The translations under genes and the position numbers were made by a program. A stretch of DNA of 64,000 bases from NCBI GenBank assembly GCA_030019335.1, contig JASEET010000001.1, positions 186,001-250,000 on the forward strand. Direction: 5' to 3'. The notes under the pieces are model-generated. The model saw nothing but the letters and a program-made list of their open reading frames with translations, searched no databases and was not told where the DNA came from. Below, piece after piece: positions 1 to 16,432 of this stretch; position 1 is the first letter of the stretch; each line of letters opens with the position of its first letter. This DNA is from Candidatus Bathyarchaeia archaeon. Lineage in GTDB: Archaea; Thermoproteota; Bathyarchaeia; Bathyarchaeales; Bathycorpusculaceae.

Positions 1-1149
1 CGTTACCTCCAATCGAATTTTCTTCGTTCGTCCATACCTTCCCATGCTTACAACTTGCGCGTTCAACAATCCTGTCGCATCAAGCTCGTTCACTAGTGTG
101 CTCACGCGTCTCTGCGTCAAGGGTGTAACACCCAATTCCCCGCAAAGTTCATTGTATACTTCGTGGATTTCCCCCGTAATAGCACGGTGAATATTTGCTC
201 TGCTTAAATGAAAAACGCTTAGAAACACAAGCTTCGAATGCAAAGTGAGATTTTTTAAGGCTTCAACAACCCGGTTGTGCTCAATGTGTTTTTCAGCCTC
301 CCGAACATGTTCTTCAACAACAACACTCGCGTCTCTTCGTTCAGCAACTTCACCAGCAACACGCAGTAAATCTAGAGCTCGTCTAGCATCACCATGCTCC
401 GCAGCAGCCAAAGCAGAGCAAAGACTCAAGGCACCATCAGACAACGCACTCTCAGGAAAAGCTAATCGCGCACGTTCAAGGAGGATGTTCTTCAATTCGC
501 TGGCGTCATAGGGTCTAAAAACGATTTCTTCCTCGCTAAGTGAACTTAAAACGCGTGGGTCAAGAAACTCCTTTAGTTGTAGGTCGTTCGATATGCCGAT
601 GAGCGAAACTTTGCTGTTGCACAATACCTCATTTATCCGTGTGAGTTCGTAGAGGAGAATGTCACCGCGAGTCTTTATTAACGCGTCAATTTCATCCAAA
701 ATGATGATGAAGATTATTTTCGAAGAGTCTAAGCCTGTTCTGAACCTGTCAAAAACCTCCCCAACAGATAAACCAGTAAAGGGAATAGACACGCCTATGC
801 TCCGGCATAAACTTGCAAAAACACGATATTCAGTGCCTGCTAAACGGCAGTTAACATAACAGAATTTAACTGGTGCATTAAACTCTTTTGCCTTGGTTTC
901 TAAATGAGTTAGCACATATTTTGTTACAGCTGTTTTACCTGTTCCTGTCTTTCCATAAATAAAAATGTTTGAGCCTCTTGCTCCTTTCAAAACAGGGGCT
1001 ATTGTCTCTCCAAGGAGTTTAATCTGTTCTCCACGATGGGGTAATCTATCAGGTAAATAATCATGCCGTAGAGCCTCTCGGTTTTTAAAAGTTTTTGTGT
1101 TGCCAACGAACTTTTCGAACACTTCGTCAAGTATGTTAGTGTCGTTCAT
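1..1149 (-). CDS. cdc6: Orc1/Cdc6 replication initiator (C-terminal end cut by window)
   Basis: AAA+ origin-binding protein that recognises ORB sites and loads the MCM helicase. The reading frame is open to the window edge, giving 383 visible residues of a family usually near 400, so only the last residues are missing. Walker A GKTGTGKT lies at about residues 66-73, Walker B ILDEID at 150-155, sensor 1 ISND at 186-189, an arginine-bearing DPRVLSS stretch near 197-203 and sensor 2 GDARRALD at 253-260. The C-terminal quarter has the look of the family's winged helix (VYNELCGELGV, RRVSTLVNELDATGLL). The start is ATG at 1149, after which the protein matches the usual N-terminal layout. It is transcribed away from an 0.8 kb AT-rich intergenic region with ORB-like repeats, the classical archaeal arrangement of initiator gene and origin. 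Confidence 0.96.
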   Translation of the reverse strand, partial: MNDTNILDEVFEKFVGNTKTFKNREALRHDYLPDRLPHRGEQIKLLGETIAPVLKGARGSNIFIYGKTGTGKTAVTKYVLTHLETKAKEFNAPVKFCYVNCRLAGTEYRVFASLCRSIGVSIPFTGLSVGEVFDRFRTGLDSSKIIFIIILDEIDALIKTRGDILLYELTRINEVLCNSKVSLIGISNDLQLKEFLDPRVLSSLSEEEIVFRPYDASELKNILLERARLAFPESALSDGALSLCSALAAAEHGDARRALDLLRVAGEVAERRDASVVVEEHVREAEKHIEHNRVVEALKNLTLHSKLVFLSVFHLSRANIHRAITGEIHEVYNELCGELGVTPLTQRRVSTLVNELDATGLLNAQVVSMGRYGRTKKIRLEVT

Positions 1150-1295
1150 TGTTTATCTCCTTAGATGCCCAGAGGTAATGCCTCAATCTCTTCTGGAAAA
1201 GATAAGCTCTCTCATACAGAAAAATTAACCAATTACAGAAATTCCTAAAAGAAGAGAAAGCCGCAATATTAAAAAGAAGAGGCAAGGGACAGAGG

Positions 1296-1319
1296 CACCC
1301 CAAGGTTTCTAGTGGAAAT
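1296..1319 (-). promoter_or_regulatory. ORB-like origin recognition box 1
   Basis: On the minus strand it reads TTTCCACTAGAAACCTTGGG followed by GTG. This matches the layout of the archaeal ORB: a TTCCA-TGGAAAC dyad core, a short spacer and a G-run. It sits about 150 bp upstream of the cdc6 start codon. Confidence 0.72.
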
Positions 1320-1480
1320 CTCTACTTAACCTTAAAGGATTATGTTGATTTCTTTTCTAGAAAGAAATATACTCTAGAAGGTAAGGATTCACAACACAGA
1401 TTATAATAATTACTGTTAAAGATTTTAGATATTTAAAAGAAATTTTTATGAAAAATACAGATTGGATTTTTAGTTTTTCT

Positions 1481-1503
1481 TTTCCAATGGAAACAGAGGG
1501 GTG
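1481..1503 (+). promoter_or_regulatory. ORB-like origin recognition box 2
   Basis: The plus strand reads TTTCCAATGGAAACAGAGGG followed by GTG. This is the closest of the three sites to the ORB layout: near-perfect dyad TTTCCAATGGAAA, a two-base spacer region and GGGGTG. It is inverted relative to box 1, with an AT-rich segment between them. Confidence 0.78.
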
Positions 1504-1740
1504 TCACTCCACCCTTTTTAACACTTTTACACTTTTTAGCGACTTTTCCCTTTTTACATTTCTCAACTCCTTTTTTGTTTTAGGTTTGTTTGAGAGATTA
1601 TACAAAGATGACTTAAACGACTGCATTAATGTTTTCTTTCACATTTTGTGAATACCATGTGAAATTGATTTGCTATTGGTTCTTTTTTGCCTTTCTTTCT
1701 ACTAGTATTAACTTTTTCTTGTTTCCTTTTTGTGAAAAGA

Positions 1741-1764
1741 CCACCCCCTCACTTCTACTGGAGA
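1741..1764 (-). promoter_or_regulatory. ORB-like origin recognition box 3
   Basis: On the minus strand it reads CTCCAGTAGAAGTGAGGGGG followed by TGG. The dyad half is less perfect than in the other two, but the CCAGT core, spacing and five-G run agree. Its G-run faces that of box 2 across a T-rich tract of about 235 bp. Confidence 0.65.
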
Positions 1765-1963
1765 TAATTAACTGCTGGTTGCTTTGTCTTTATTTGCTAT
1801 CTAGAGAAACTGTGAAATTTGTGATAATAAAAGCGGTGAAATTTTTCGTTCTTTTCTTTTTTCCGTTCTGAAATGGAATTCTTTTTAAGTTCTTCTTCAC
1901 CACAACATCTATAACTTGTGAAATGTAAAATTGTGAAGTGCCCGCTGAAGGTGTACACCATTA

Positions 1964-2386
1964 ATGCCAGCGAGAAAGATGCGCATCGAACTATTCGATA
2001 GTGAAGGTAATAAATATACAATAGCCTTTGAAGGCCAAATAACCCGAGAGAAAGCTCTTCGTCTTTTAGATTTGGTAGAGCTGTTAGGTGGAATGCCTAG
2101 TGGGGGCAACCCGGTAATCAACGCTGCAAGCAACGAGTTTTCCAAATATGACAAAGTCCGCATGATTATTCAAAAGCATTTTCCACTAGTCTGGTTCTCC
2201 TCCAAAGAGATTCAACATACCTATGAACAAGAATTTAAAGAGTCAATAGCCCTCAGCGCAGTAGCGACTTATCTTGCTAGGATAGCAAATAAAGGAATGC
2301 TTGTCAGGACGGGGGCCTCTAATCGCCTGAAATATAGGAGTACCCCGAATTTTCCACAGGCCACGCTTAAACAGCAAATACCTTGA
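1964..2386 (+). CDS. Small winged-helix-like protein upstream of nurA-herA
   Basis: A 140-residue protein of unknown function. Residues 6-45 form an N-terminal module with a predicted beta hairpin (MRIELFDSEGNKYTIAFEGQ) and a helix (TREKALRLLDLVELLGG). After a glycine-rich linker, residues 60-125 look like a winged helix: KVRMIIQKHFPLVWFSSKEI, then a helix resembling a recognition helix (SAVATYLARIANKGMLVR). This suggests a DNA- or partner-binding adaptor. The ATG at 1964 has a GAAGGTG Shine-Dalgarno-like stretch about 12 nt upstream; an in-frame ATG five codons in is an alternative. It is the first gene of a co-directional set with NurA and HerA and borders the candidate origin. No name is assigned because I do not recognise a specific family. 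Confidence 0.75.
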   Translation: MPARKMRIELFDSEGNKYTIAFEGQITREKALRLLDLVELLGGMPSGGNPVINAASNEFSKYDKVRMIIQKHFPLVWFSSKEIQHTYEQEFKESIALSAVATYLARIANKGMLVRTGASNRLKYRSTPNFPQATLKQQIP

Positions 2387-2441
2387 TAAAGTTATTACGA
2401 AGTTTTGTTAGAGTCAATAGGGAAAGAGGATGTTGTTGCCG

Positions 2442-3428
2442 ATGGCAGAGGGTATAATAAACGATTTAAGCGAAGTTGTGAAGACGCTTGCAAGATATGT
2501 CGAAAATGGCTTCACAATCCAGTCTTTGGAGCAGAAACGCGAGTCCCTTGTTCTAAGCAAGCCTGATGCTTCAAAATTCACGCCGCTGAAAAGGCTGGAC
2601 AGTTACAGTGAGAAATTGGTTGCTGTTGATTGTTCTACAAGAACATTAAAACGGGCTCATAATTGGGGTATATTCATGCTTCGGACCGCCCACGCTTTGG
2701 TTGAAAACCGTGAAGTAGATTGGGGATACAAGGAGAAATTAACCGTTTTAATCGGACCATCCTATGTGCGGTGTAATACCTTGCGTAATTTAAGACTTGA
2801 AGTTGAAAGTGAGGCTGCCTTAGACCTAAGCGAAAGATTAGATTCAAACGATTATATCCTTCTAGACGGTGCAAGTTATTTCGGTGAGAAAAAAGGGTTC
2901 CAGGTTTCTTTGTATGAAAAATGCAAAAAGAAAGATGTTTATCTTCTAGCGTTCAGCAAACAATCTCCAACTTTGCACGATGAGTATGGAAGAGATTTTC
3001 AAGCCGCAGTACAACTGATTGCGCCGCGCAGCCTCTGGGTTTATCATCCGGTTCGAAAGGCGAATTTAAACGAACATTTGTATGGCGACATTTCTATCGT
3101 AAAGCTCTGTGAAGAAAGTCCACGAGTTTTCCGCTGTGATATCATGAAATATTTAACCGACCGCAAGATAGCCAAGATGCTTTCTCCGCTTACTGCGGTA
3201 TCAAAGGATCCGAGGTGTTTAGGTTATCCTGTTCCTCTTTGGCTTGCCCACGAATTTTCTACTACTTCTGATTCAAAACTCCTCTATTACCATGAGCTGG
3301 TTGAGGCCTCGTTGAAAGAAGCTGGAATTTATGATAAGTTGAGCAGAGAGGAGCTTGCCTGCAATTTTGCAGATGAACTTCATAGTATACGGTATCCTTT
3401 CGAAAGGGAAGTGATTGAATATGTCTGA
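2442..3428 (+). CDS. nurA: NurA-domain 5'-3' nuclease
   Basis: Nuclease partner of the HerA helicase in archaeal DNA end resection. The conserved NurA blocks are visible: VAVDCSTRT with the first catalytic Asp at about residue 63, DYILLDGASYF with a second Asp near 142, LAFSKQSPT, and the C-terminal PLWLAHEFSTTSD block. Length, about 328 residues, is normal. I place the start at ATG 2442 because the Shine-Dalgarno GGGAAAGAGG abuts the in-frame ATG at 2430 directly; 2430 stays possible. The last codons overlap the herA start by 8 bp, so the two products are translationally coupled, fitting their known complex. Confidence 0.9.
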   Translation: MAEGIINDLSEVVKTLARYVENGFTIQSLEQKRESLVLSKPDASKFTPLKRLDSYSEKLVAVDCSTRTLKRAHNWGIFMLRTAHALVENREVDWGYKEKLTVLIGPSYVRCNTLRNLRLEVESEAALDLSERLDSNDYILLDGASYFGEKKGFQVSLYEKCKKKDVYLLAFSKQSPTLHDEYGRDFQAAVQLIAPRSLWVYHPVRKANLNEHLYGDISIVKLCEESPRVFRCDIMKYLTDRKIAKMLSPLTAVSKDPRCLGYPVPLWLAHEFSTTSDSKLLYYHELVEASLKEAGIYDKLSREELACNFADELHSIRYPFEREVIEYV

Positions 3429-4965
3429 AGCGAGCTTTGTTGGTTCTGTAAGGCGAGTCGACGGTGACAAAGCTTCTTTCTTTCTTGATAAGGGTGCGAA
3501 ACTCTCGTTTGGGCAGATAGTTAAAATTGAATCCGGCGACAGAACTTTTTATGCCCGTGTGGTTAACGCTGGGAGTTCTTCAACACTGGATACTCACGAA
3601 CAGTTGAGAGAGGCACAAGGCAAAGAATCCTTCGGTCCATACTCAAGCTACAGGTACGTAGATGCTGTTCTTTTCCTCGAGAAAACCGCCAATAGAGTGC
3701 GCTCACCAACTTTTAACCCAAACTATATGGATAAAGTGTACAGCACCAGCCTTGAAGATTGTTCGATTTTAAGGTTGGCTGGGGAGTTGGAGATTGGGCG
3801 GTTGCGGTCTGGGGAGCAAGTGTTTGGAAAAATAGGCGTGGGCATTGAGGCTATCCCCTTAATGATGGGCATGTTTGGCATGACGGGCTGTGGAAAAACC
3901 AACTGCGAACTAGTTTTAAACGCCCAAATAATTGACCACAGCCCAAAAACAGTAGCATTAATATTCGACTTTGCTGGGCAGCTTTTAGAAGGAAAAGGAA
4001 TACATCCGCAAAAGGGCTTGAAAGAACATCCGCTTTTCCACACGCGGGTCAAGTATTATTCGGCTAGAGAAAAGAAAATGTGCATAGGCCTTTACACAAT
4101 GTGTCCTAATAAAATACGCATAATATTTCCTGACATTGGTGCTCCTCAAGTTAGACTTGCGCAGAAGCTCTATGAAATTCTGGGTGAAAAATGGATTGAA
4201 CATGCTAGAGAAGCCTACACAAACGAGGGCTACATGGGTGTTGGAAAAATCATTGGTTACAAACATAAGGGCGTGATTGAGGCGTTAATGCTTAAACTCT
4301 TAAGCCTTTCTCCAGAAATTTTTCCGCCATCTAACTATAGCTTCATAGATGATGTGATTCAAAACATAACAAACGGTATAACATGCTTAATTGACATCTC
4401 TGGCATAAGTTCGGAGGAACAGCAGAACGTCACATGCCTAACAGCTTCACGTGTGGCACTTCATTATAAGAGGATGTGGGAGCAGCATTTTGATGAATGG
4501 AAAAAGCTTCCCACGTTGCTGATAACGCTTGAGGAAGCCCACGAATTCCTCGACCCAGCTAAGCCCAAGACAATTTTTTCGGACGTCGCCTTAACCTATC
4601 GGAAATATCGAGTTGGCTTAAATGCAGTGACGCCAAAGCCGTCAAGGATAAACTTTGATGTTTTTGCGGAACTTTGGACAAAGATGATAATGAAGACTGA
4701 GTTGCGGCGTGACCGTGCCTACCTTACTGAAAATACGCCGTACCTTGAATACAGCGATACCGAGATAAAAATGCTTGATGTAGGTGAAGCCTTGCTGATT
4801 TCGGAGCCTCGGATACGTTTTGCCGTTCCAGTTAAAATCACGCATTATCCAGAATATTTGGACGAGCATGGGAAGGAAGACTATGGGCTTCCGGAATCGC
4901 AGAAACTTTCAGACATGGAGAAACGCCTCAAACAGTTGAGTGGGCAAGAAGTCCTTTACCTATAG
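3421..4965 (+). CDS. herA: HerA-type hexameric DNA helicase/translocase
   Basis: FtsK/HerA-family ATPase that works with NurA in double-strand break resection. Residues 1-60 resemble the HAS beta barrel (FVGSVRRVDGDKASFFLDKG). Walker A GMTGCGKT is at about residues 153-160 and Walker B LLITLEEAHEFL near 365-376, with a downstream arginine-rich segment (RKYRVGLNAVTPKPSR) where the arginine finger is expected. The 514-residue length is typical. ATG 3421 overlaps the nurA stop and has GGGAAGTG just upstream, which decides the start over an in-frame TTG two codons earlier. The gene forms an operon with nurA and the 140-residue protein, next to the candidate origin. Confidence 0.93.
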   Translation: MSEASFVGSVRRVDGDKASFFLDKGAKLSFGQIVKIESGDRTFYARVVNAGSSSTLDTHEQLREAQGKESFGPYSSYRYVDAVLFLEKTANRVRSPTFNPNYMDKVYSTSLEDCSILRLAGELEIGRLRSGEQVFGKIGVGIEAIPLMMGMFGMTGCGKTNCELVLNAQIIDHSPKTVALIFDFAGQLLEGKGIHPQKGLKEHPLFHTRVKYYSAREKKMCIGLYTMCPNKIRIIFPDIGAPQVRLAQKLYEILGEKWIEHAREAYTNEGYMGVGKIIGYKHKGVIEALMLKLLSLSPEIFPPSNYSFIDDVIQNITNGITCLIDISGISSEEQQNVTCLTASRVALHYKRMWEQHFDEWKKLPTLLITLEEAHEFLDPAKPKTIFSDVALTYRKYRVGLNAVTPKPSRINFDVFAELWTKMIMKTELRRDRAYLTENTPYLEYSDTEIKMLDVGEALLISEPRIRFAVPVKITHYPEYLDEHGKEDYGLPESQKLSDMEKRLKQLSGQEVLYL

Positions 4966-4969
4966 TAGG

Positions 4970-5707
4970 TTACGTTGTTTCGCTTTCCGTCTTTTTTAAA
5001 AGTTTTTCCATCTCCTTCTTAATACGATACTTAAACGGAATCTTGCTCGTATCTCTTTCCAAGTAACCTTCTTCGTAAAGCTTCTTCATCAACCTTGCCG
5101 TATGCTCCCTGCTAAGCTTGATTCTATCCTTAATCTCCGGTGCAGTCTTAGGACCCTCCATAGCCAACATTTCCAGCACAGATAACTCAGTTTCAGTCAA
5201 CGGAGCCAATGCTTTCTCCCTTTTTATGGGCATTACTGCTTCAACTTTTGCCTCAGGAATCATCGAGAATTGCTGAGTTTGTTCTTCTATGTCGGAAATT
5301 TTTGCAGCTAGTGCCTCTTGTGATGCAACAGCATCACGTACCTTTTTGTTGATTTCATCCAATCTTGCCAGCATTTTCTCTTTGTCTTCTGACGCAACAC
5401 TAATTTTGGGCTTTAAAGCATGCAACTTTTTCTCAACTTCTTCCGCTCTTTTAATAGCCCTATCGCTTTTCGAGGAAACTGCCTCAACTTTGTATGCAAC
5501 AAGCTCCAGCTTTTCAGCTTCACGCTTAAGTTGCCTATTAAAACTCAAAACAATATCTCCAACAACTTCCTTTGCCTTTCCGTATTCCATCTGAACTTTG
5601 CGGAGTTGCTTATAATATTCAACCGCAGCACCCACAGTTGCGGCAAGCAAAACACCCACAAGAATCAATAAGACATCAGTCAAATAACGCACCTCTGTGA
5701 TTCGCAT
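4970..5707 (-). CDS. Membrane-anchored coiled-coil winged-helix regulator
   Basis: A 245-residue protein with three visible parts: one N-terminal membrane segment (VLLILVGVLLAATVGAAV, about residues 12-29), a long charged coiled coil (about 35-145, rich in K/E heptads), and a C-terminal winged helix (LTETELSVLEMLAMEGPKTA, then SREHTARLMKKLYEEGYLER, about 168-215). The C-terminal module resembles MarR-like domains found in many archaeal regulators. It is convergent with herA, only 4 bp apart. Its upstream region holds exact copies of ATCACACATCACAG, the likely operators, so autoregulation is plausible. How a membrane-tethered DNA-binding protein acts here is unknown; the family has no established function that I can name. 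Confidence 0.85.
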   Translation of the reverse strand: MRITEVRYLTDVLLILVGVLLAATVGAAVEYYKQLRKVQMEYGKAKEVVGDIVLSFNRQLKREAEKLELVAYKVEAVSSKSDRAIKRAEEVEKKLHALKPKISVASEDKEKMLARLDEINKKVRDAVASQEALAAKISDIEEQTQQFSMIPEAKVEAVMPIKREKALAPLTETELSVLEMLAMEGPKTAPEIKDRIKLSREHTARLMKKLYEEGYLERDTSKIPFKYRIKKEMEKLLKKTESETT

Positions 5708-5751
5708 GTGATTATATGTGATTCAATCATGTTACATCACACATCACAGTT
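5706..5751. repeat. Operator-like ATCACA/TGTGAT repeat cluster A
   Basis: Immediately upstream of the minus-strand start codon at 5707 are two ATGTGAT units (5706-5712, 5716-5722) followed by the 18-bp unit ACATCACACATCACAGTT at 5734-5751. The TGTGAT and ATCACA units are inverted relative to each other, as in a dimeric repressor site. Confidence 0.6.
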
Positions 5752-5804
5752 CTACCATGAAAGATTTAAGGATTATGGTATCTAACATTATTTGAAATTC
5801 CATG

Positions 5805-5822
5805 ACATCACACATCACAGTT
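5805..5822. repeat. Operator-like repeat, exact copy B
   Basis: ACATCACACATCACAGTT, identical over 18 bp to the unit at 5734-5751 and 71 bp away in the same orientation. It lies in the 271-bp gap between the winged-helix gene and the 171-residue gene. Confidence 0.6.
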
Positions 5823-5962
5823 TGAATAACGTAAACTGTCTCAAACTAAGGTGATATCTACGCTGATAAAAACACCCGAGTTTTAGGTTATTTCCGTCTT
5901 TTCAGTATTTTCTGTGTTCCAATTAATATGCGATGCCTGGGCATTTTTCTTGTTCAATTTCT

Positions 5963-5980
5963 GATGTGATTTGTGATGTC
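5963..5980. repeat. Operator-like repeat, inverted variant C
   Basis: GATGTGATTTGTGATGTC. Its reverse complement, GACATCACAAATCACATC, matches copies A and B in most positions. It overlaps the stop codon of the 171-residue gene transcribed toward the regulator. Confidence 0.5.
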
Positions 5981-6494
5981 ACATTCTGCCTTCTGACGGA
6001 TTTGAGAGCTGTTTTAGGCTTGTTTCAAGCTCTTCTCTTATAATTTTTATGACTTTAAGCTGTTCATTTAGTTCTCCGCTTTTGTTCGGTATGTCTTTGT
6101 ATGCTTCTACATATTCATGTAGTTTGTTTGCTATTTCTAGATAGGGGTCTAGCTGTGTGCTTTCGAAGATTCCTAAGTATCCTAAAAGCAGCACCGTGTA
6201 AATAGCTTTTACTACGTTTTCTTTTGCCTGTTTTAATGTTCTGTTAAAGGCTCCGCGGCTTATTTTTGCCTTTGTTAGCCTTAATATTGCTTTTTCATCG
6301 TATTTTAACGGTTTTCCGGCAATATTTTCAGATAAAACGTCAATGAGTAATGTTTCAAGCTGCGTTTTTGTTAAGTGACTGTTTTTAGCAAGTATTTTTA
6401 CAATTGGGTCGTTTAGGGAGTGTATCAGCCACGATTGGACGCTCTTTTTTAACTTCAAATCTTTCTCTCCGCAGATTCTTTCTAATGGATACAA
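5979..6494 (-). CDS. Helical protein of unknown function
   Basis: A 171-residue, mostly helical, charged protein without membrane segments. The middle part (LTKTQLETLLIDVLSENIAG, then KAKISRGAFNRTLKQAKENV) looks like an HTH-containing or helical-bundle fold, and the C-terminus (KVIKIIREELETSLKQL) could be a coiled coil. I do not recognise the family. The apparent start is TTG at 6494; no closer Shine-Dalgarno decides it. It is oriented toward the membrane-anchored winged-helix gene with the repeated ATCACA elements between them, so the two may be co-transcribed. It is divergent from the aminotransferase. Confidence 0.65.
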   Translation of the reverse strand: MYPLERICGEKDLKLKKSVQSWLIHSLNDPIVKILAKNSHLTKTQLETLLIDVLSENIAGKPLKYDEKAILRLTKAKISRGAFNRTLKQAKENVVKAIYTVLLLGYLGIFESTQLDPYLEIANKLHEYVEAYKDIPNKSGELNEQLKVIKIIREELETSLKQLSNPSEGRM

Positions 6495-6574
6495 TTTTGT
6501 ATACGAGTAACCTTTTAAGAATATCTATCGAAAAGTGTATGTTCCTTTTACTGATTTACGAACGTAAACATTTT

Positions 6575-7783
6575 ATGGTGAAGAAAACAATTCGTAGTGA
6601 GGAATCTCTCTTGGTCTCAAACTTTAAGCCTGCAAAACGCCTAAAACACATAAAGCCCTCTGGGATACGCCGATTTTTCACTTTAGCCCGAGAAATACCC
6701 GACGCTATTAACCTGAGTGTGGGCGAACCTGATTTTACACCCCCAAAACATGCTTTGGATGCTGGTTGGCAAGCGGCAAAGGAAGGTAAGACGCATTATG
6801 CACCTACTAATGGTATTTCTGAACTTCGGGAGGCTCTGGCGCAGAAGGCCTACCGTGATTATGGTCTTAGTTATGACTCGGACTCTGAGATATTAATTAC
6901 TGTTGGTGGGACTGAGGCAATTTTCTTGGCGCTAATGGGCTTGGTAAATCCTGGTGATGAGGTGTTAATTCCAAATCCAGGGTTTGTGTGTTATGAACCT
7001 AATGTTCTGTTAGCTGGTGGTGTTCCTGTTTCTGTTCCGTTGTTAGAGGAGAACGGTTTTAAACCGTCTATCGATGATGTGATGTCACTTATCACGGATA
7101 GGTCACGTGTGATTATTCTGAATTACCCGAATAACCCGACGGGCACGGTTCTTTCTTATGATGAGGTTGCTGCTTTGGCGAAGATTGCTGTTGAGCGTGA
7201 CCTGATTGTGATTTCTGATGAGGTTTACGAGAAGATAATTTATGATGACACTAAACACTATTGTCTTGCAACTTTCCCAGGGATGCGTGAGCGCACGCTG
7301 GTTGTTAATTCCTTCTCTAAAACTTATGCGATGACCGGTCTGCGGATCGGATATATTTATGGACCAAAGGAGCTTATTTCTTCTGTTTGGCTTGTGCACC
7401 AGTATACGGTTACTTGTGTAAATAGCTTGGCGCAGTACATTGCACTAGCCGCATTAAGGGGACCACAAGATTTTGTTAAGGATATGGTTAGAGAGTTTGA
7501 TAGACGTCGATGTCTGATTTACAAACGGCTCAATGAGATTGAAGGTTTTGATTGTGCGCTTCCGAAAGGTGCTTTCTACGTTTTCCCAAACATAGAGGGC
7601 TTCGGCAAGTCTTCAGAAGAATTTGTAGAGTTTCTTGTAAGAGAGGCGCATGTCACAACTGTTCCCGGATCCGCTTTTGGCAATTACGGTGAAGGCTACA
7701 CCAGACTTTCATATGCTGCTGCATATGGACAGTTAGAAGAAGCATTAGACCGTATAGAAAAAGCTGTTAGGCGCCTCAGATAG
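6575..7783 (+). CDS. Class I/II PLP aminotransferase (aspartate/aromatic type)
   Basis: Fold-type I aminotransferase transferring amino groups between an amino acid and a 2-oxo acid. Visible blocks are NLSVGEPDF near the N-terminus, the cofactor-contact motif NYPNNPTGTV, the ISDEVYEKI segment, the PLP Schiff-base lysine in NSFSKTYAMTGLRIGY (Lys249) and a C-terminal arginine region (GEGYTRLSYAA). The length is about 402 residues from ATG 6575, typical for the family; longer upstream readings add a sequence that looks non-coding and overlaps the divergent gene. Aspartate or alanine is the likely amino donor, but substrate cannot be fixed from sequence alone. Confidence 0.92.
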   Translation: MVKKTIRSEESLLVSNFKPAKRLKHIKPSGIRRFFTLAREIPDAINLSVGEPDFTPPKHALDAGWQAAKEGKTHYAPTNGISELREALAQKAYRDYGLSYDSDSEILITVGGTEAIFLALMGLVNPGDEVLIPNPGFVCYEPNVLLAGGVPVSVPLLEENGFKPSIDDVMSLITDRSRVIILNYPNNPTGTVLSYDEVAALAKIAVERDLIVISDEVYEKIIYDDTKHYCLATFPGMRERTLVVNSFSKTYAMTGLRIGYIYGPKELISSVWLVHQYTVTCVNSLAQYIALAALRGPQDFVKDMVREFDRRRCLIYKRLNEIEGFDCALPKGAFYVFPNIEGFGKSSEEFVEFLVREAHVTTVPGSAFGNYGEGYTRLSYAAAYGQLEEALDRIEKAVRRLR

Positions 7784-11262: not shown

Positions 11263-11362
11263 AAGACTCTGGCAACCATAGTTTTTGACTTGTTTCTGTC
11301 AGAAAACCAAAATAAACTATGACAAACACAAGAGGTTGCGGAGACACAGCTTGAACAGTCAA

Positions 11363-14300
11363 ATGAGCGAAGCCTATCAACGGTATGTTGCAAGCCTAGA
11401 AAACCAGCTCGAGCAAGTATATGCCATAAGCAGAAAAGCTAGAGAAAAGGGGCTTGATCCGACATTTAAACCTGAATGCGGCATTGCCAAGGATTTAGCC
11501 GACCTCGTAGAGGGGCTTGTGGGACCAAAAGGGGTTGCCGAAAGCATCAGAGAATTAAGCACTAAACTTCCAAGGGAAGAATTAGCTTTCAAAATCGCAG
11601 AAGAAATCGTTTACGGTAAGTTTGAGCATATGGAATCTGAGGCTGCAGCTGAACAAGCCATACGTACTGCACTGGCAATTCTTACAGAGGGGCTCACCGC
11701 TGCGCCTTTACAGGGAGTAGCGAAGGTGAAAATCAAAACTAACAAGGACAGAACAAGATATCTTGCAATTTATTTCGCGGGTCCAATTCGTTCTGCTGGT
11801 GGAACCGACCAAACTTTGACGTTGGTGATTGGAGATTTTGTGCGGCGATTGCTTGGGCTTGACCGCTACAAGCCTACAGAAGAGGAGATTGCACGCTTCA
11901 TTGAAGAGGTAAGGCTTTACGAACGTTCTGTAAGCCGCTTCCAATACCACGTTTCAGATGAGGAATTGCGAAGGGCAGTTCAATGGCTACCAGTGGAAGT
12001 AACAGGCACAGAATCCGACCCCATCGAAGTTTCTTCTTTTCGAAACCTTCCACGTATAGAAACAAACCGTGTGAGGGGTGGAGCCCTACGCGTTGTAAAT
12101 GATGGAGTTGTTGGACGCTCCTCAAAAGTTTGGACAATCATAGAAAAACTGGGGATTCAAGGCTGGGATTGGCTTAAAGAAATTAATCAAATATCTGAGA
12201 AAAAATCCGCTGGATTTATGGACGATGTCATCGCTGGCCGCCCCATATTTTGCTTTCCGTCCAGACGTGGCGGTTTTCGTCTGAGATATGGTAGGGCACG
12301 AAACACAGGTCTAGCAGCTGTGGGTGTCCATCCAGCAACTATGCTTGTGCTTCAGGGCTTTCTAGCTGCGGGCACCCAACTTCGTTTGGAACTTCCGGGA
12401 AAAGGTGGTATTGCAGTTCCGGTTGATGCGATAGAGTCTCCTATCGTTCGGTTGAGAGACGGCTCTGTTGTTCGAGTTTCAGTTGAAAACTTCGCCGAGA
12501 TAAAAAATAAGATCGAGAAAATCCTGTTTCTGGGCGACATATTAATCAGTTTTGGGGACTTTTTGTATAATAGCAAGCCTCTTGCGCCTTCTGGGTATGT
12601 TGAAGAATGGTGGGTTGAAGACCTACGGAAGATTATAATGGAGAAGTTCAATAGAGATTTTAGAGGAGCCGCTGAAGCCGTTAAGATTCCGTTGGAAAGG
12701 CTGAAAAGTTTTTTGGAAAACCCGTTTGCCAACAAGCCTAACCTTGGGGAAGCAATAGCCTTATCGTTGACATTACGTGTACCCCTTCATCCGTGTTTCA
12801 CGTTTTTTTGGTCAAACCTTGCTTCAATTGAAGAGCTCAAAATGTTGAGGGAATGGCTCCTTAATTCCGAATTACAGCGTGAAGATGGCTTAGTTCGCAG
12901 AATTGTCGGCGAAATAGAGGCAAATGTCAAACTAGCCTTGGAAACAATCTGCCTACCCCATAGAGTTTTAGACGGCAAGATTACTGTTGAAGGTGATTGT
13001 GCACACGCATTTGCATTCTGTCTTGGCTATGGGGCTTCAGATGTAGACTTTTCTTCTGCTGGATCTGTTTTAGAAGCAATCCGCTTGCTTTCTAGCGTGT
13101 TGGTTAGGGAAAAGGCTCCGACACTTATTGGTGCGCGGATGGGGCGTCCGGAAAAAGCAAAAAGACGTGAGATGAAACCCCTTGTGCATGTGCTTTTCCC
13201 TGTTGGTTTGGCCGGTGGCTCTCAGAGGAATGTTGTTGAGGCGGCGAAGCGGGAATCCGTCTTTGTGGAGATTGTTAAACGTAAGTGTCCCGTTTGTAAA
13301 ACCTATACTTTTAGAATAAAGTGTCCGGCGTGCGGGGTTGAAACTGTTCTTGAGAAAATCTGTCCTAGATGTGAGAGAAGCTTAAAAGGAGATGTGTGCC
13401 CCGTTTGTAAAGTGCTCGCTAAATCCTATGGAAAACAAGTTGTCAACTTTAAAGAGCTTCTTGAAAGTACATGTAGTCGTCTAGCCGTTTCGGTTCCCAA
13501 GGTTTTGAAAGGTGTAAAAGGCTTAATGAATGAGACGAAGACTCCAGAAATCATCGAAAAAGGCGTTTTACGTGCAAAATATGACTTATCCGTCTATAAA
13601 GATGGAACAATCCGTTTTGATGCGACAAACGCACCATTGAGTTTAGATTACAATGAACAGATATACATCATTAATGAAAATGGGGATTTGGAATTTGTTA
13701 GAATTGGGGAATTCGTGGATCAGTTAATGGAACAAGAGGGGTATATTACTGATGCATCAGGATTTGAAATACTTGATGGTTCCCGCCTCAAATTTAGAGT
13801 CTTGTCGTTTAATCCCCTAACTTTGAGGGTAAAACCAAAAAAAGTGACAGCATTTATTAGGCATAAGGCTGATGGTGCATTGTATCGGGTACGCACGGCA
13901 ACTGGGCGGGAAATTGTAGTTACTAGATATCATTCCCTATTTACTCTCAATCCGGATACGGGAGAAATTGTTCCAATTGAGACAGAGAAATTATGTCCAG
14001 GAAGTTTCATTGTCATCCCACGAAAAATACCCTATGAAAAAGATATGAAACACATCAATCTATTAACCCTGTTCGCTGGAAACCCGGACCAAATTCGAGT
14101 GAAGGCTCCTAAGCAAGTTCTTAGGCGTATGATTAATGAACTTGGCGGTACGTCGCACGTAGCGAGAGCAATCTCTGTCAACAGATCAACGGTGAACGGT
14201 TGGATTATGAGAGGCAATATACCCCTGAGGGTGTTCTTATGGTTGGCTAATGAGTCAAAAACTTCCATCAACACAAAGTACTTAAAGAAAAATAAATTCC

Positions 14301-16432
14301 GGCTTGCTTGGATAAACAGTAGAGGTTTAAATGTTCCCGCCGTTCTTCCAATTAACGATGCCTTTCTGAGGCTAATTGGATATTACCTATCGGAAGGGTG
14401 GTGTTGGAAGGGGTCCAAAATATACCAGAGTCGCACATTGGGGTTCAGAAACTTTGATAAAGAGGTATTAGACGATTTTGTTGAATGCTTTTACCAGCTA
14501 TTTCACAGTCTTCCTCAAATAAGAAAGAAAGAAACTGGTGTGATTTACGTAAACTCAAATCTCTTGGCTGAAATTATAACTAAAGTTTTCAAATGTGGAA
14601 GTCGCTCTAGCGATAAACGTATCCCAGAGTTCATTCTTTCTCTGCCATTACCGAAATTAGCCCAATTCCTACGAGCGTACTTTAGTGGAGATGGATACGT
14701 GAGTAAGACAACCTCACATCATGTCGGATGCTCTACTATTAGTAGAAAGCTAGCGGACGGCCTTCTTTTCTCTTTACTTCGGTTTGGCATTATAGCGCGT
14801 GTTAAGAAGAGAAATAAGCTACCAAAAGGTATCTGTAAGTATGCAATAGTTCAACCAATTTATGAAATAACATTTGGAGGTCGTGAAAATTTAGAGAAAT
14901 TCTACAATCACATCACTTTTATTCAAAAGGAAAATATGGAGGTGGTCAAGTACTACCTTAAAAAGGCACCAACACATCCATGGCGAACAGATATTTTGCC
15001 GTTAAAGCGTTTTCTACGTGATTCGCTGGGAAAAAGCACTTTTATGAATGTGAGATTGAACCGTGGCGAAACCATAACGAGGGCAAATTTGGGTAAAATT
15101 GCTGGCACCGTATCAAATGGACCAAGCATGGAAGCGCTAGGTTTTACGTTGACCACATTGGTCAACAGTGATCTTTTCTTTGATAAGGTTGAAGAGATTG
15201 ATCAAACATCACCGACCAATGAATACGTATACGATTTAGAAGTACAGCCAAATGGTGAGAAAATAGAGAATTTTCTATCAGGCTTTGGCGGAATCTTTGC
15301 GCACAACACGCATTTTAAGCCAGCAGAGGTCGGCGTGTCTGTGGAGAGGCTTCAACAGCTGGGCTATGCCCATGATTGTGACGGAAGTCCCCTAGCTGAT
15401 TCGGATCAGGTTTGTGAGCTCAAGGTGCAGGATGTTGTTGTCCCGCTGGAGTGTGTGGAGTATTTTATTCGTGTAGCAAATTGTATAGATGAACTTCTTG
15501 AGAAGGTGTACGAGCTTCCCCCATTCTATAACGTTAAGAGGGTTGATGATCTGGTTGGCCACCTTATTGTTGGTTTGGCTCCTCACACTTCTGTGGGCAT
15601 TTTGGGACGCATCGTAGGATTCACAAATCTGAAAGTTTGCTATGCACATCCTGTTTGGCATTCAGCTAAACGAAGGGACTGTGACGGCGACGAAGATACG
15701 TTAATGCTTGCCTTGGATACTTTGCTTAACTTTTCCCGTGAATACTTGCCTGCGCAAATAGGGGGAATAATGGATGCTCCCTTGCTTTTGATTCCGGTTG
15801 TTAATACGCAGGAAGTGCAGAGGCAAGCTCATGATGTTGACGTTGCTTGTGCCTATCCAATTGAGTTTTATGAAAAGACATGGGAAAACGTGGAAGCTAG
15901 GCAAGTTAGCAAACTTATAGACATAGTTGAGTACAGGCTTGGAACCGAGGGGCAATTTGAAGGCTTTAATTACACAACACCCGTTTCAAACATAAATTTG
16001 GGTAATCCTGAAAGTGCGTATAAACGGTTCAAAACGATGATTGAGAAGCTGAATAGTCAGCTTGAGTTGGCTGAGAAGATTGAGGCTGTTAATGTTAAAG
16101 AGGTAGCCTTAAAGGTTTTAACTACACATTTTATTCGGGACATTGCTGGGAACCTTCGGGCTTTTTCAGCGCAAGGTTTTAGGTGTAAGTCTTGCAACAG
16201 GCGTTTCCGGCGTTTGCCGCTTCGTGGTAAATGTCCGGCATGCGGTGGAGCACTGACCTTAACCGTTTATCGGGGCGGTATAGAAAAATATGTGGATGCG
16301 GCGCAACATCTGATTGAAAAATATGGGCTGCCGCAGTATTACGCTCAAAGGATTCTGCTTGTAAGGGAGGAGATTAATGCTTTGTTTGAGGGTAAAAAGC
16401 CGAAGCAAATTAGCCTAGTAGACTTTGTCTAA
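11363..16432 (+). CDS. polC: DNA polymerase D large subunit DP2, with intein
   Basis: Catalytic subunit of the archaeal D-family replicative polymerase. The extein is about 1,133 residues and the precursor 1,689. N-terminal DP2 blocks include YFAGPIRSAGGTDQTL and NRVRGGALRVVNDG. A cysteine-rich zinc-binding segment lies at about 13,280-13,410 (four CxxC pairs), the catalytic aspartates are in DCDGDEDT at 15,677-15,700, and a second zinc ribbon (CKSCNRRF, CPACGG) is near the C-terminus. The start is taken as ATG 11363 because the upstream reading is rich in unlikely residues. The frame is uninterrupted through the intein, whose removal rejoins NAPL with THFKPAE. DP1 is not in the window. Confidence 0.96.
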   Translation: MSEAYQRYVASLENQLEQVYAISRKAREKGLDPTFKPECGIAKDLADLVEGLVGPKGVAESIRELSTKLPREELAFKIAEEIVYGKFEHMESEAAAEQAIRTALAILTEGLTAAPLQGVAKVKIKTNKDRTRYLAIYFAGPIRSAGGTDQTLTLVIGDFVRRLLGLDRYKPTEEEIARFIEEVRLYERSVSRFQYHVSDEELRRAVQWLPVEVTGTESDPIEVSSFRNLPRIETNRVRGGALRVVNDGVVGRSSKVWTIIEKLGIQGWDWLKEINQISEKKSAGFMDDVIAGRPIFCFPSRRGGFRLRYGRARNTGLAAVGVHPATMLVLQGFLAAGTQLRLELPGKGGIAVPVDAIESPIVRLRDGSVVRVSVENFAEIKNKIEKILFLGDILISFGDFLYNSKPLAPSGYVEEWWVEDLRKIIMEKFNRDFRGAAEAVKIPLERLKSFLENPFANKPNLGEAIALSLTLRVPLHPCFTFFWSNLASIEELKMLREWLLNSELQREDGLVRRIVGEIEANVKLALETICLPHRVLDGKITVEGDCAHAFAFCLGYGASDVDFSSAGSVLEAIRLLSSVLVREKAPTLIGARMGRPEKAKRREMKPLVHVLFPVGLAGGSQRNVVEAAKRESVFVEIVKRKCPVCKTYTFRIKCPACGVETVLEKICPRCERSLKGDVCPVCKVLAKSYGKQVVNFKELLESTCSRLAVSVPKVLKGVKGLMNETKTPEIIEKGVLRAKYDLSVYKDGTIRFDATNAPLSLDYNEQIYIINENGDLEFVRIGEFVDQLMEQEGYITDASGFEILDGSRLKFRVLSFNPLTLRVKPKKVTAFIRHKADGALYRVRTATGREIVVTRYHSLFTLNPDTGEIVPIETEKLCPGSFIVIPRKIPYEKDMKHINLLTLFAGNPDQIRVKAPKQVLRRMINELGGTSHVARAISVNRSTVNGWIMRGNIPLRVFLWLANESKTSINTKYLKKNKFRLAWINSRGLNVPAVLPINDAFLRLIGYYLSEGWCWKGSKIYQSRTLGFRNFDKEVLDDFVECFYQLFHSLPQIRKKETGVIYVNSNLLAEIITKVFKCGSRSSDKRIPEFILSLPLPKLAQFLRAYFSGDGYVSKTTSHHVGCSTISRKLADGLLFSLLRFGIIARVKKRNKLPKGICKYAIVQPIYEITFGGRENLEKFYNHITFIQKENMEVVKYYLKKAPTHPWRTDILPLKRFLRDSLGKSTFMNVRLNRGETITRANLGKIAGTVSNGPSMEALGFTLTTLVNSDLFFDKVEEIDQTSPTNEYVYDLEVQPNGEKIENFLSGFGGIFAHNTHFKPAEVGVSVERLQQLGYAHDCDGSPLADSDQVCELKVQDVVVPLECVEYFIRVANCIDELLEKVYELPPFYNVKRVDDLVGHLIVGLAPHTSVGILGRIVGFTNLKVCYAHPVWHSAKRRDCDGDEDTLMLALDTLLNFSREYLPAQIGGIMDAPLLLIPVVNTQEVQRQAHDVDVACAYPIEFYEKTWENVEARQVSKLIDIVEYRLGTEGQFEGFNYTTPVSNINLGNPESAYKRFKTMIEKLNSQLELAEKIEAVNVKEVALKVLTTHFIRDIAGNLRAFSAQGFRCKSCNRRFRRLPLRGKCPACGGALTLTVYRGGIEKYVDAAQHLIEKYGLPQYYAQRILLVREEINALFEGKKPKQISLVDFV
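13640..15307 (+). other. Intein with LAGLIDADG (DOD) endonuclease in DP2
   Basis: A 556-residue in-frame insertion between DATNAPL and THFKPAE of DP2. It begins with Ser (SLDYNEQIYII), has the splicing block B TxxH (VVTRYHSLF), and ends with block F YVYDLEV and block G GGIFAHN followed by Thr as the +1 residue. Two DOD motifs are visible, LIGYYLSEGW and FLRAYFSGDGYV, so the homing endonuclease looks intact. Between the splicing and endonuclease parts is an HTH-like segment (ELGGTSHVARAISVNRSTVN). The same APL/T site is the known intein location in Pyrococcus DP2, from family knowledge. Confidence 0.93.

Follow-up and report, generated by a model that had tools for sequence, protein, structure and literature searches.

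Transmembrane transcription regulators, among them the ToxR/CadC class and the Sulfolobus proteins ArnR and ArnR1, carry a DNA-binding domain and a membrane segment in one polypeptide, and archaeal examples exist (PMC10269533, PMC6396743). Here, we describe a locus in a 64,000-nucleotide stretch of a Candidatus Bathyarchaeia archaeon genome (contig JASEET010000001.1, positions 186,001 to 250,000; hereafter the window), where a protein that we call REG is encoded beside the replication origin and behind an array of short repeats. With a predicted membrane segment and a winged helix, REG belongs among the transmembrane regulators by architecture. It departs from them in its layout, with the segment at the very N-terminus, almost nothing of the protein beyond the membrane, a helix of 138 residues, the winged helix at the C-terminus and no evident sensor part. 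It also departs from them in that its sites stand at a single locus beside the origin, with no sign of a regulon.

The locus also recalls several systems in which DNA sites are linked to origins. In the archaeal SegAB system, too, a DNA-binding protein has sites ahead of the operon that encodes it, namely palindromes upstream of segA, and membrane tethers have been proposed for SegB (PMC5120986, PMC12284271). However, REG is a different protein that itself has a membrane segment, its sites are not chromosome-wide, and no ParA-type (segA) gene lies directly beside it, the neighbours being p171, an aminotransferase, HerA/NurA, p140 and Orc1. Bacterial ParB-parS shares with the locus a cluster of origin-proximal sites close to the gene for the protein that binds them (PMC7333895), REG being the predicted binder here. 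In contrast to ParB, REG has no CTPase domain, no ParA partner nearby and a different motif, and Pfam and NCBIfam searches returned no match to a ParB/Noc-type domain. RacA is a transcription-factor-type binder with sites in the origin region and a role in chromosome capture. The Bacillus RefZ-RBM system, which also acts in chromosome capture, likewise pairs a transcription-factor-type binder with sites at a conserved position relative to oriC (PMC6657595). In RefZ and RacA the fold is of the TetR or another type, the sites are scattered across tens to hundreds of kb and contact with the membrane is indirect, whereas REG is MarR-like. Lastly, the centromere-binding protein AspA of pNOB8 (PDB 5k5q) shares the winged-helix fold and was matched by the REG model in Foldseek, but it is a plasmid protein without a membrane segment, and the match reflects the generic fold only. 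The REG system resembles the origin-linked site systems (ParB-parS, RefZ-RBM and the SegB sites) and is a member of none. A search of the open-access literature, which covered open-access papers alone, found no description of the locus.

The locus and its origin setting

The features of the window that bear on the argument are as follows.

1-1149, minus strand: Orc1-1/Cdc6 initiator gene, with its 3′ end beyond the window
1150-1963: probable oriC, AT-rich, with a canonical ORB TTTTCCAATGGAAACAGAGGGGT near 1481-1503 and a second ORB-like half near 1304
1964-2386, plus strand: p140, a conserved gene between REG and oriC whose small product has a weak winged-helix-like match
2430-3428, plus strand: NurA, between REG and oriC in some genomes only
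3415-4965, plus strand: HerA-like ATPase, between REG and oriC in some genomes only
4970-5683, minus strand: REG, a membrane-anchored coiled-coil winged-helix protein of 237 aa, with a probable TTG start at 5683
5696-5722, minus strand: leader units, three ATCACA half-sites (TGTGAT at 5696, 5707 and 5717) spaced by 10 and 11 bp, the last at the SD
5730-5751, minus strand: site C ACTGTGATGTGTGATGTAACA, where transcription is expected to start
5763-5780, minus strand: conserved BRE/TATA-like element ACCATAATCCTTAAAT
5803-5822, minus strand: site B CTGTGATGTGTGATGTCAT
5965-5983, plus strand: site A TGTGATTTGTGATGTCACA, inverted relative to B and C and including the p171 stop codon
5979-6494, minus strand: p171, a conserved all-helical protein between D and the A-B-C array
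6556-7783, plus strand: class I/II aminotransferase carrying D, missing from many genomes that retain D
7078-7113, no strand assigned: cluster D TGTGATGTCACTTATCACGGATAGGTCACGTGTGAT, within the aminotransferase coding sequence

The order along the locus is DP2, GGGPS, p89, NadE, nitrilase, (aminotransferase), p171, array, REG, (HerA, NurA), p140, oriC and Orc1, genes in brackets being variably present. In all 43 genomes with Orc1-1 and REG on one contig, Orc1-1 lies 1.2-4.2 kb from REG, on its 3′ side and on the same strand; these distances form two groups, with or without NurA-HerA in between. The first-pass annotation had missed this origin setting. The anatomy of oriC in the window is that expected of archaeal origins (PMC4010727), and ORB-like sites occur at 1.48 per kb in the 1 kb upstream of Orc1-1, compared with 0.006 per kb elsewhere in the loci (about 250-fold). 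The GC skew of genome G048, taken from 20 samples, gave no clear origin signal, so the origin was placed by Orc1-1 and the ORB boxes instead. Genomes that appeared to lack REG were considered as independent losses. In G043 and four others, however, Orc1 sits at or near a contig end, which suggests gaps in the assemblies, and these cases were left out of the evidence.

Orc1, p140 and p171 are present with the same constancy as REG. The p171 protein always adjoins the array and is better conserved than REG; it had no Pfam or NCBIfam match and no credible fold match in the PDB. A different repeat, TTGTGAA (for example TTGTGAAATGTAAAATTGTGAAG), occupies oriC upstream of p140, at about 1640-1945 of the window. 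Its density is 2.84 per kb in the 1 kb upstream of Orc1-1 versus 0.25 per kb elsewhere in the loci (about 11-fold), and p140 or another origin protein may bind it. Separately, the ORF for the large subunit of DNA polymerase D (11285-16432, 1715 aa) has an apparent intein-like insertion.

REG is a predicted membrane-anchored winged-helix protein

The mechanical ORF list starts REG at an ATG at 5707. The true start is probably the TTG at 5683, which follows an SD-like AGAGGTG and agrees with the orthologues; with this start, the three leader units are non-coding. The first-pass annotation had proposed a tethered DNA-binder, and as a prediction this is supported. A hydrophobic segment covers residues 4-22 approximately, and all 46 orthologues checked have an N-terminal hydrophobic segment, the maximum hydropathy over 19 residues being 1.6 or more at positions 1-5. 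In the AlphaFold2 model (pLDDT 84), residues 2-139 form one helix and residues 164-221 the winged helix, with a disordered linker between them (140-163).

Residues 170-229 score above the Pfam cut-offs for the MarR and TrmB types of winged helix (PF01047, 31.6 bits against a cut-off of 24.6; PF01978, 29.3 against 25.6), and the best Foldseek matches of the model are MarR proteins. The recognition helix LSREHTARLMKKLY (residues 190-203) is the most telling part: across nine families its identity to the window residues is 97%, compared with 44% for the long helix. This constant recognition helix beside a constant DNA site is our main ground for regarding the array, with considerable confidence, as the predicted binding target of REG itself.

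A conserved array confined to the REG locus

The repeats that first drew attention to the locus are real. Two identical 18-mers, ACATCACACATCACAGTT, stand 71 bp apart at 5734-5751 and 5805-5822; the inverted variant is present as TGTGATTTGTGATGTCACA at 5965-5983, and TGTGAT units occur singly at the three leader positions. The original bounds of 5706-5980 do contain repeats, but the array reaches a further cluster at 7078-7113 and probably a TGTGAT at 7207. With REG starting at 5683, the gap between REG and p171 is 5684-5978 and takes in the leader units. The half-site of the array is TGTGAY, and C together with the three leader units, one helical turn apart, spans 5696-5751.

Two checks had been set beforehand, namely conservation of the motif upstream of orthologues and its scarcity elsewhere, and both came out in favour of the array. 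REG orthologues were found in 50 of 61 relatives, and 123 candidate loci were identified among named Bathyarchaeota records. Every one of the 97 Bathyarchaeota loci tested has an upstream array, and each of these regions beat at least 199 of 200 dinucleotide shuffles (the 1/200 level), with a mean of 8.2 half-sites per region compared with approximately 0.8 in the shuffles. Chance repeats were rejected on this result and on the reversed control of the A/B/C motif TGTGAYNTGTGAYGTNA, which had no match in 61 genomes. Of the 67 matches to the motif itself in those genomes, 66 lie no more than about 2.5 kb from REG; the sole match away from a REG locus is in G015 (contig C97, 28112-28128).

Genome-wide statements are based on pattern searches and on a 400-kb sample of G048. 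In the whole genome of the window's organism (1,637,887 bases, 1.64 Mb), ATCACACATCACAG occurs twice, both times at the REG locus, and the same pattern read backwards has no match. The looser pattern TGTGATN{0,6}TGTGA has 14 matches, five at the REG locus and the other nine isolated; a search with the window pattern TGTGATNNNTGTGAT and mismatches allowed was uninformative. The 400 kb of G048, sampled round the chromosome, held no 150-bp window with four or more half-sites, compared with two clusters, of eight and seven half-sites per 150-bp window, at the REG locus of that genome.

The arrays follow a common plan. Read along REG, it begins where the upstream gene p171 has its stop codon, with A TGTGACRTCACAAATCACA, and continues, after a variable gap, with B TGTGATGTGTGAYGTCAT, a BRE/TATA-like element ACCATAATCYTTAAAT, C ACTGTGATGTGTGATGYAACATG and ATCACA units about one helical turn apart that reach the SD. 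Half-sites are preferentially arranged as direct repeats 7 bp apart, as overlapping inverted pairs (6) or as direct repeats 10-11 bp apart. In the genomes of family f1, the distance from the TATA element to C is held at 21-25 bp, while B-C varies from 58 to 75 bp and A-B more widely still. C therefore keeps its place relative to the promoter and coincides with the expected transcription start, which makes autoregulation likely: judged from sequence, REG probably controls its own synthesis through C.

A distal cluster selected as DNA

Half-sites binned over 74 named loci show a second peak at about -1500 to -1000 from REG, corresponding to cluster D. D lies 1.2-1.6 kb from the REG start and at least about 220-640 bp from the p171 start. 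In the 1 kb before p171, three or more half-sites per 150 bp were found in 30 of 40 loci with the aminotransferase gene and in 49 of 51 without it; the same criterion was reached in 0/91 and 2/91 cases in two control stretches. The D core palindrome RTCACRYGTGAY, at 7102-7113 in the window, was found in 29 of 31 loci that carry the aminotransferase gene and in 22 of the 45 that do not; the 758 kb of these loci hold no copy elsewhere. Of the 61 relatives, 33 have a longer form, RTCACRYGTGAYNNNNNNGTGAY, each in a single copy, and its reversed control gave no match.

In the window alone, synonymous shuffling gave only marginal values for D (P of about 0.04-0.05 for GTGAY cores and 0.39 for full half-sites), and a few of the loci scored as lacking the aminotransferase may retain remnants of the gene. 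The argument for D therefore rests on the loci without an aminotransferase gene: because D is kept there, its pattern of conservation indicates selection as DNA rather than as part of the aminotransferase coding sequence. The proposal that the sites are autoregulatory fits C, at its fixed distance from the TATA element, and is incomplete for the array, since D lies 1.2-1.6 kb off in another gene and is kept where that gene is missing.

Homologues beyond Bathyarchaeia

A phylum-wide profile search found REG homologues in 149 of 398 genomes. In families f19, f51, f33, f28 and f10 the homologue lies 0.5-1.3 kb from Orc1-1 in the same orientation, and in f48 at about 3.5 kb; the homologues examined from these six families retain the membrane segment. 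The recognition helix also recurs in other Thermoproteota families that share the Orc1-1 synteny, and most such families have significant TGTGAT clusters just upstream of the homologue, with f33 as an exception (P 0.02-0.07). Family f19, with small and mostly closed genomes, is probably Nitrosopumilaceae. Because f19 genomes have TGTGAT pairs elsewhere too, we claim exclusivity for the Bathyarchaeota motifs only. In f19 and f48 (loci L190-L199), TGTGAT units lie partly within the 3′ end of the p171-homologue coding sequence, through GTG valine codons; synonymous shuffling of these sites gave mixed results (P 0.000-0.47), on which we place little weight. The distance between homologue and Orc1 grows to 15-33 kb in f25 and f29, and some outgroups have the homologue on another contig.

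The family f16 genomes (G361, G388 and G418; loci L162, L163 and L164) keep the winged helix, have no membrane segment and place Orc1 on the opposite side of the REG homologue. They have dense GTGAY (CGTGAY/RTCACG) arrays, with 13-16 units compared with about three by shuffling. Anchoring is thus not universal. As a natural variant, f16 could separate anchoring from DNA binding.

Discussion

Our data are consistent with a model in which REG binds TGTGAY half-sites through its winged helix and, by occupying C on the transcription start, would repress or set its own synthesis in a negative feedback. Sites A, B and C, together with the distal D, would form a multi-site origin-proximal element. 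REG may multimerise through its long helix, and multimers on A, B and D could gather or loop approximately 1.5 kb of DNA. With the N-terminal segment fixing REG in the membrane, the nucleoprotein complex would hold the oriC/Orc1 region there and so act like a centromere or a tether when new origins are placed or segregated. We give this overall reading, a REG-bound array with C as operator and the whole forming a membrane-held origin-proximal complex, a probability of roughly 45%. Tethering of the origin to the membrane, taken as a separate claim, we put forward tentatively, at slightly under even odds, and it is weakened by the f16 family with its array and no anchor, and by the outgroups whose homologue stands 15-33 kb from Orc1 or on another contig.

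The main competitor is that REG is a membrane-bound regulator and nothing else, whose conserved targets would be limited to the REG promoter region and possibly the p171 promoter region, with B, A and D as auxiliary operators acting by looping, and closeness to the origin inherited with the gene order. Every array includes the REG promoter region and the sites always precede REG, which plain autoregulation would explain; C covers the expected start site at a fixed spacing, transmembrane transcription regulators are common in archaea (PMC10269533), and the f16 arrays exist without a membrane segment. As the whole story, however, autoregulation fits poorly with a locus that is a replication origin and stays linked to it whether NurA-HerA is lost or gained in between, and with D, which is far from the REG and p171 starts, often inside a coding sequence and kept after gene loss. 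A regulator with no detectable target except itself also needs another role. We consider this reading a serious one that is nonetheless rather doubtful. Alternatively, array-bound REG could modulate Orc1-1/oriC firing, or expression of origin-side genes, in response to a membrane signal, instead of tethering DNA for segregation. The proximity of oriC and Orc1-1 (1.2-4.2 kb) and of DNA replication and repair genes suits such initiation control, but REG has almost no extra-membrane sequence with which to sense a signal, and it is TTGTGAA, not TGTGAY, that is enriched in oriC; on balance this is unlikely.

The sites might instead belong to another protein (Orc1, p140, p171 or a nucleoid protein), with REG a mere neighbour, as the equally constant presence of the first three would allow. 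Yet the array is centred on the REG promoter, the REG recognition helix is nearly invariant, and neither p171 nor p140 has a strong match to a DNA-binding domain. Orc1-bound ORBs were rejected as the identity of the array: the ORB core TTCCANTGGAAA is absent from it, the ORB consensus differs, and the ORB-like sites are in oriC (in the window near 1481). A different binder is accordingly very unlikely. Chance, or a leader element acting at the RNA level, we regard as exceedingly improbable. Some inverted units could pair in RNA, but the sites stand in both orientations and also within neighbouring coding sequences on either strand, they are conserved far beyond chance, and an Rfam search gave no match.

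Outside the work on SegAB in Sulfolobales, archaeal origin placement and separation have been called enigmatic, and membrane tethers there are so far only suspected (PMC12284271, PMC7617429). Here a specific DNA element is paired with a protein that brings a predicted membrane anchor of its own, in a position beside the origin, and this makes the question of origin placement directly testable. That position is conserved across the phylum, which probably includes cultivable ammonia oxidisers. More tentatively still, the locus may represent an ancient archaeal origin-anchoring system, in which a single-pass winged-helix membrane protein on a centromere-like array fixes oriC with no ParA-type partner nearby, and which would predate the split between Bathyarchaeia and the probable Nitrososphaeria. 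Even if REG were only an autoregulator, the locus would be a good marker of oriC in these archaea. If the model is true, a self-controlled membrane protein ties the origin region to the cell membrane across a large archaeal group.
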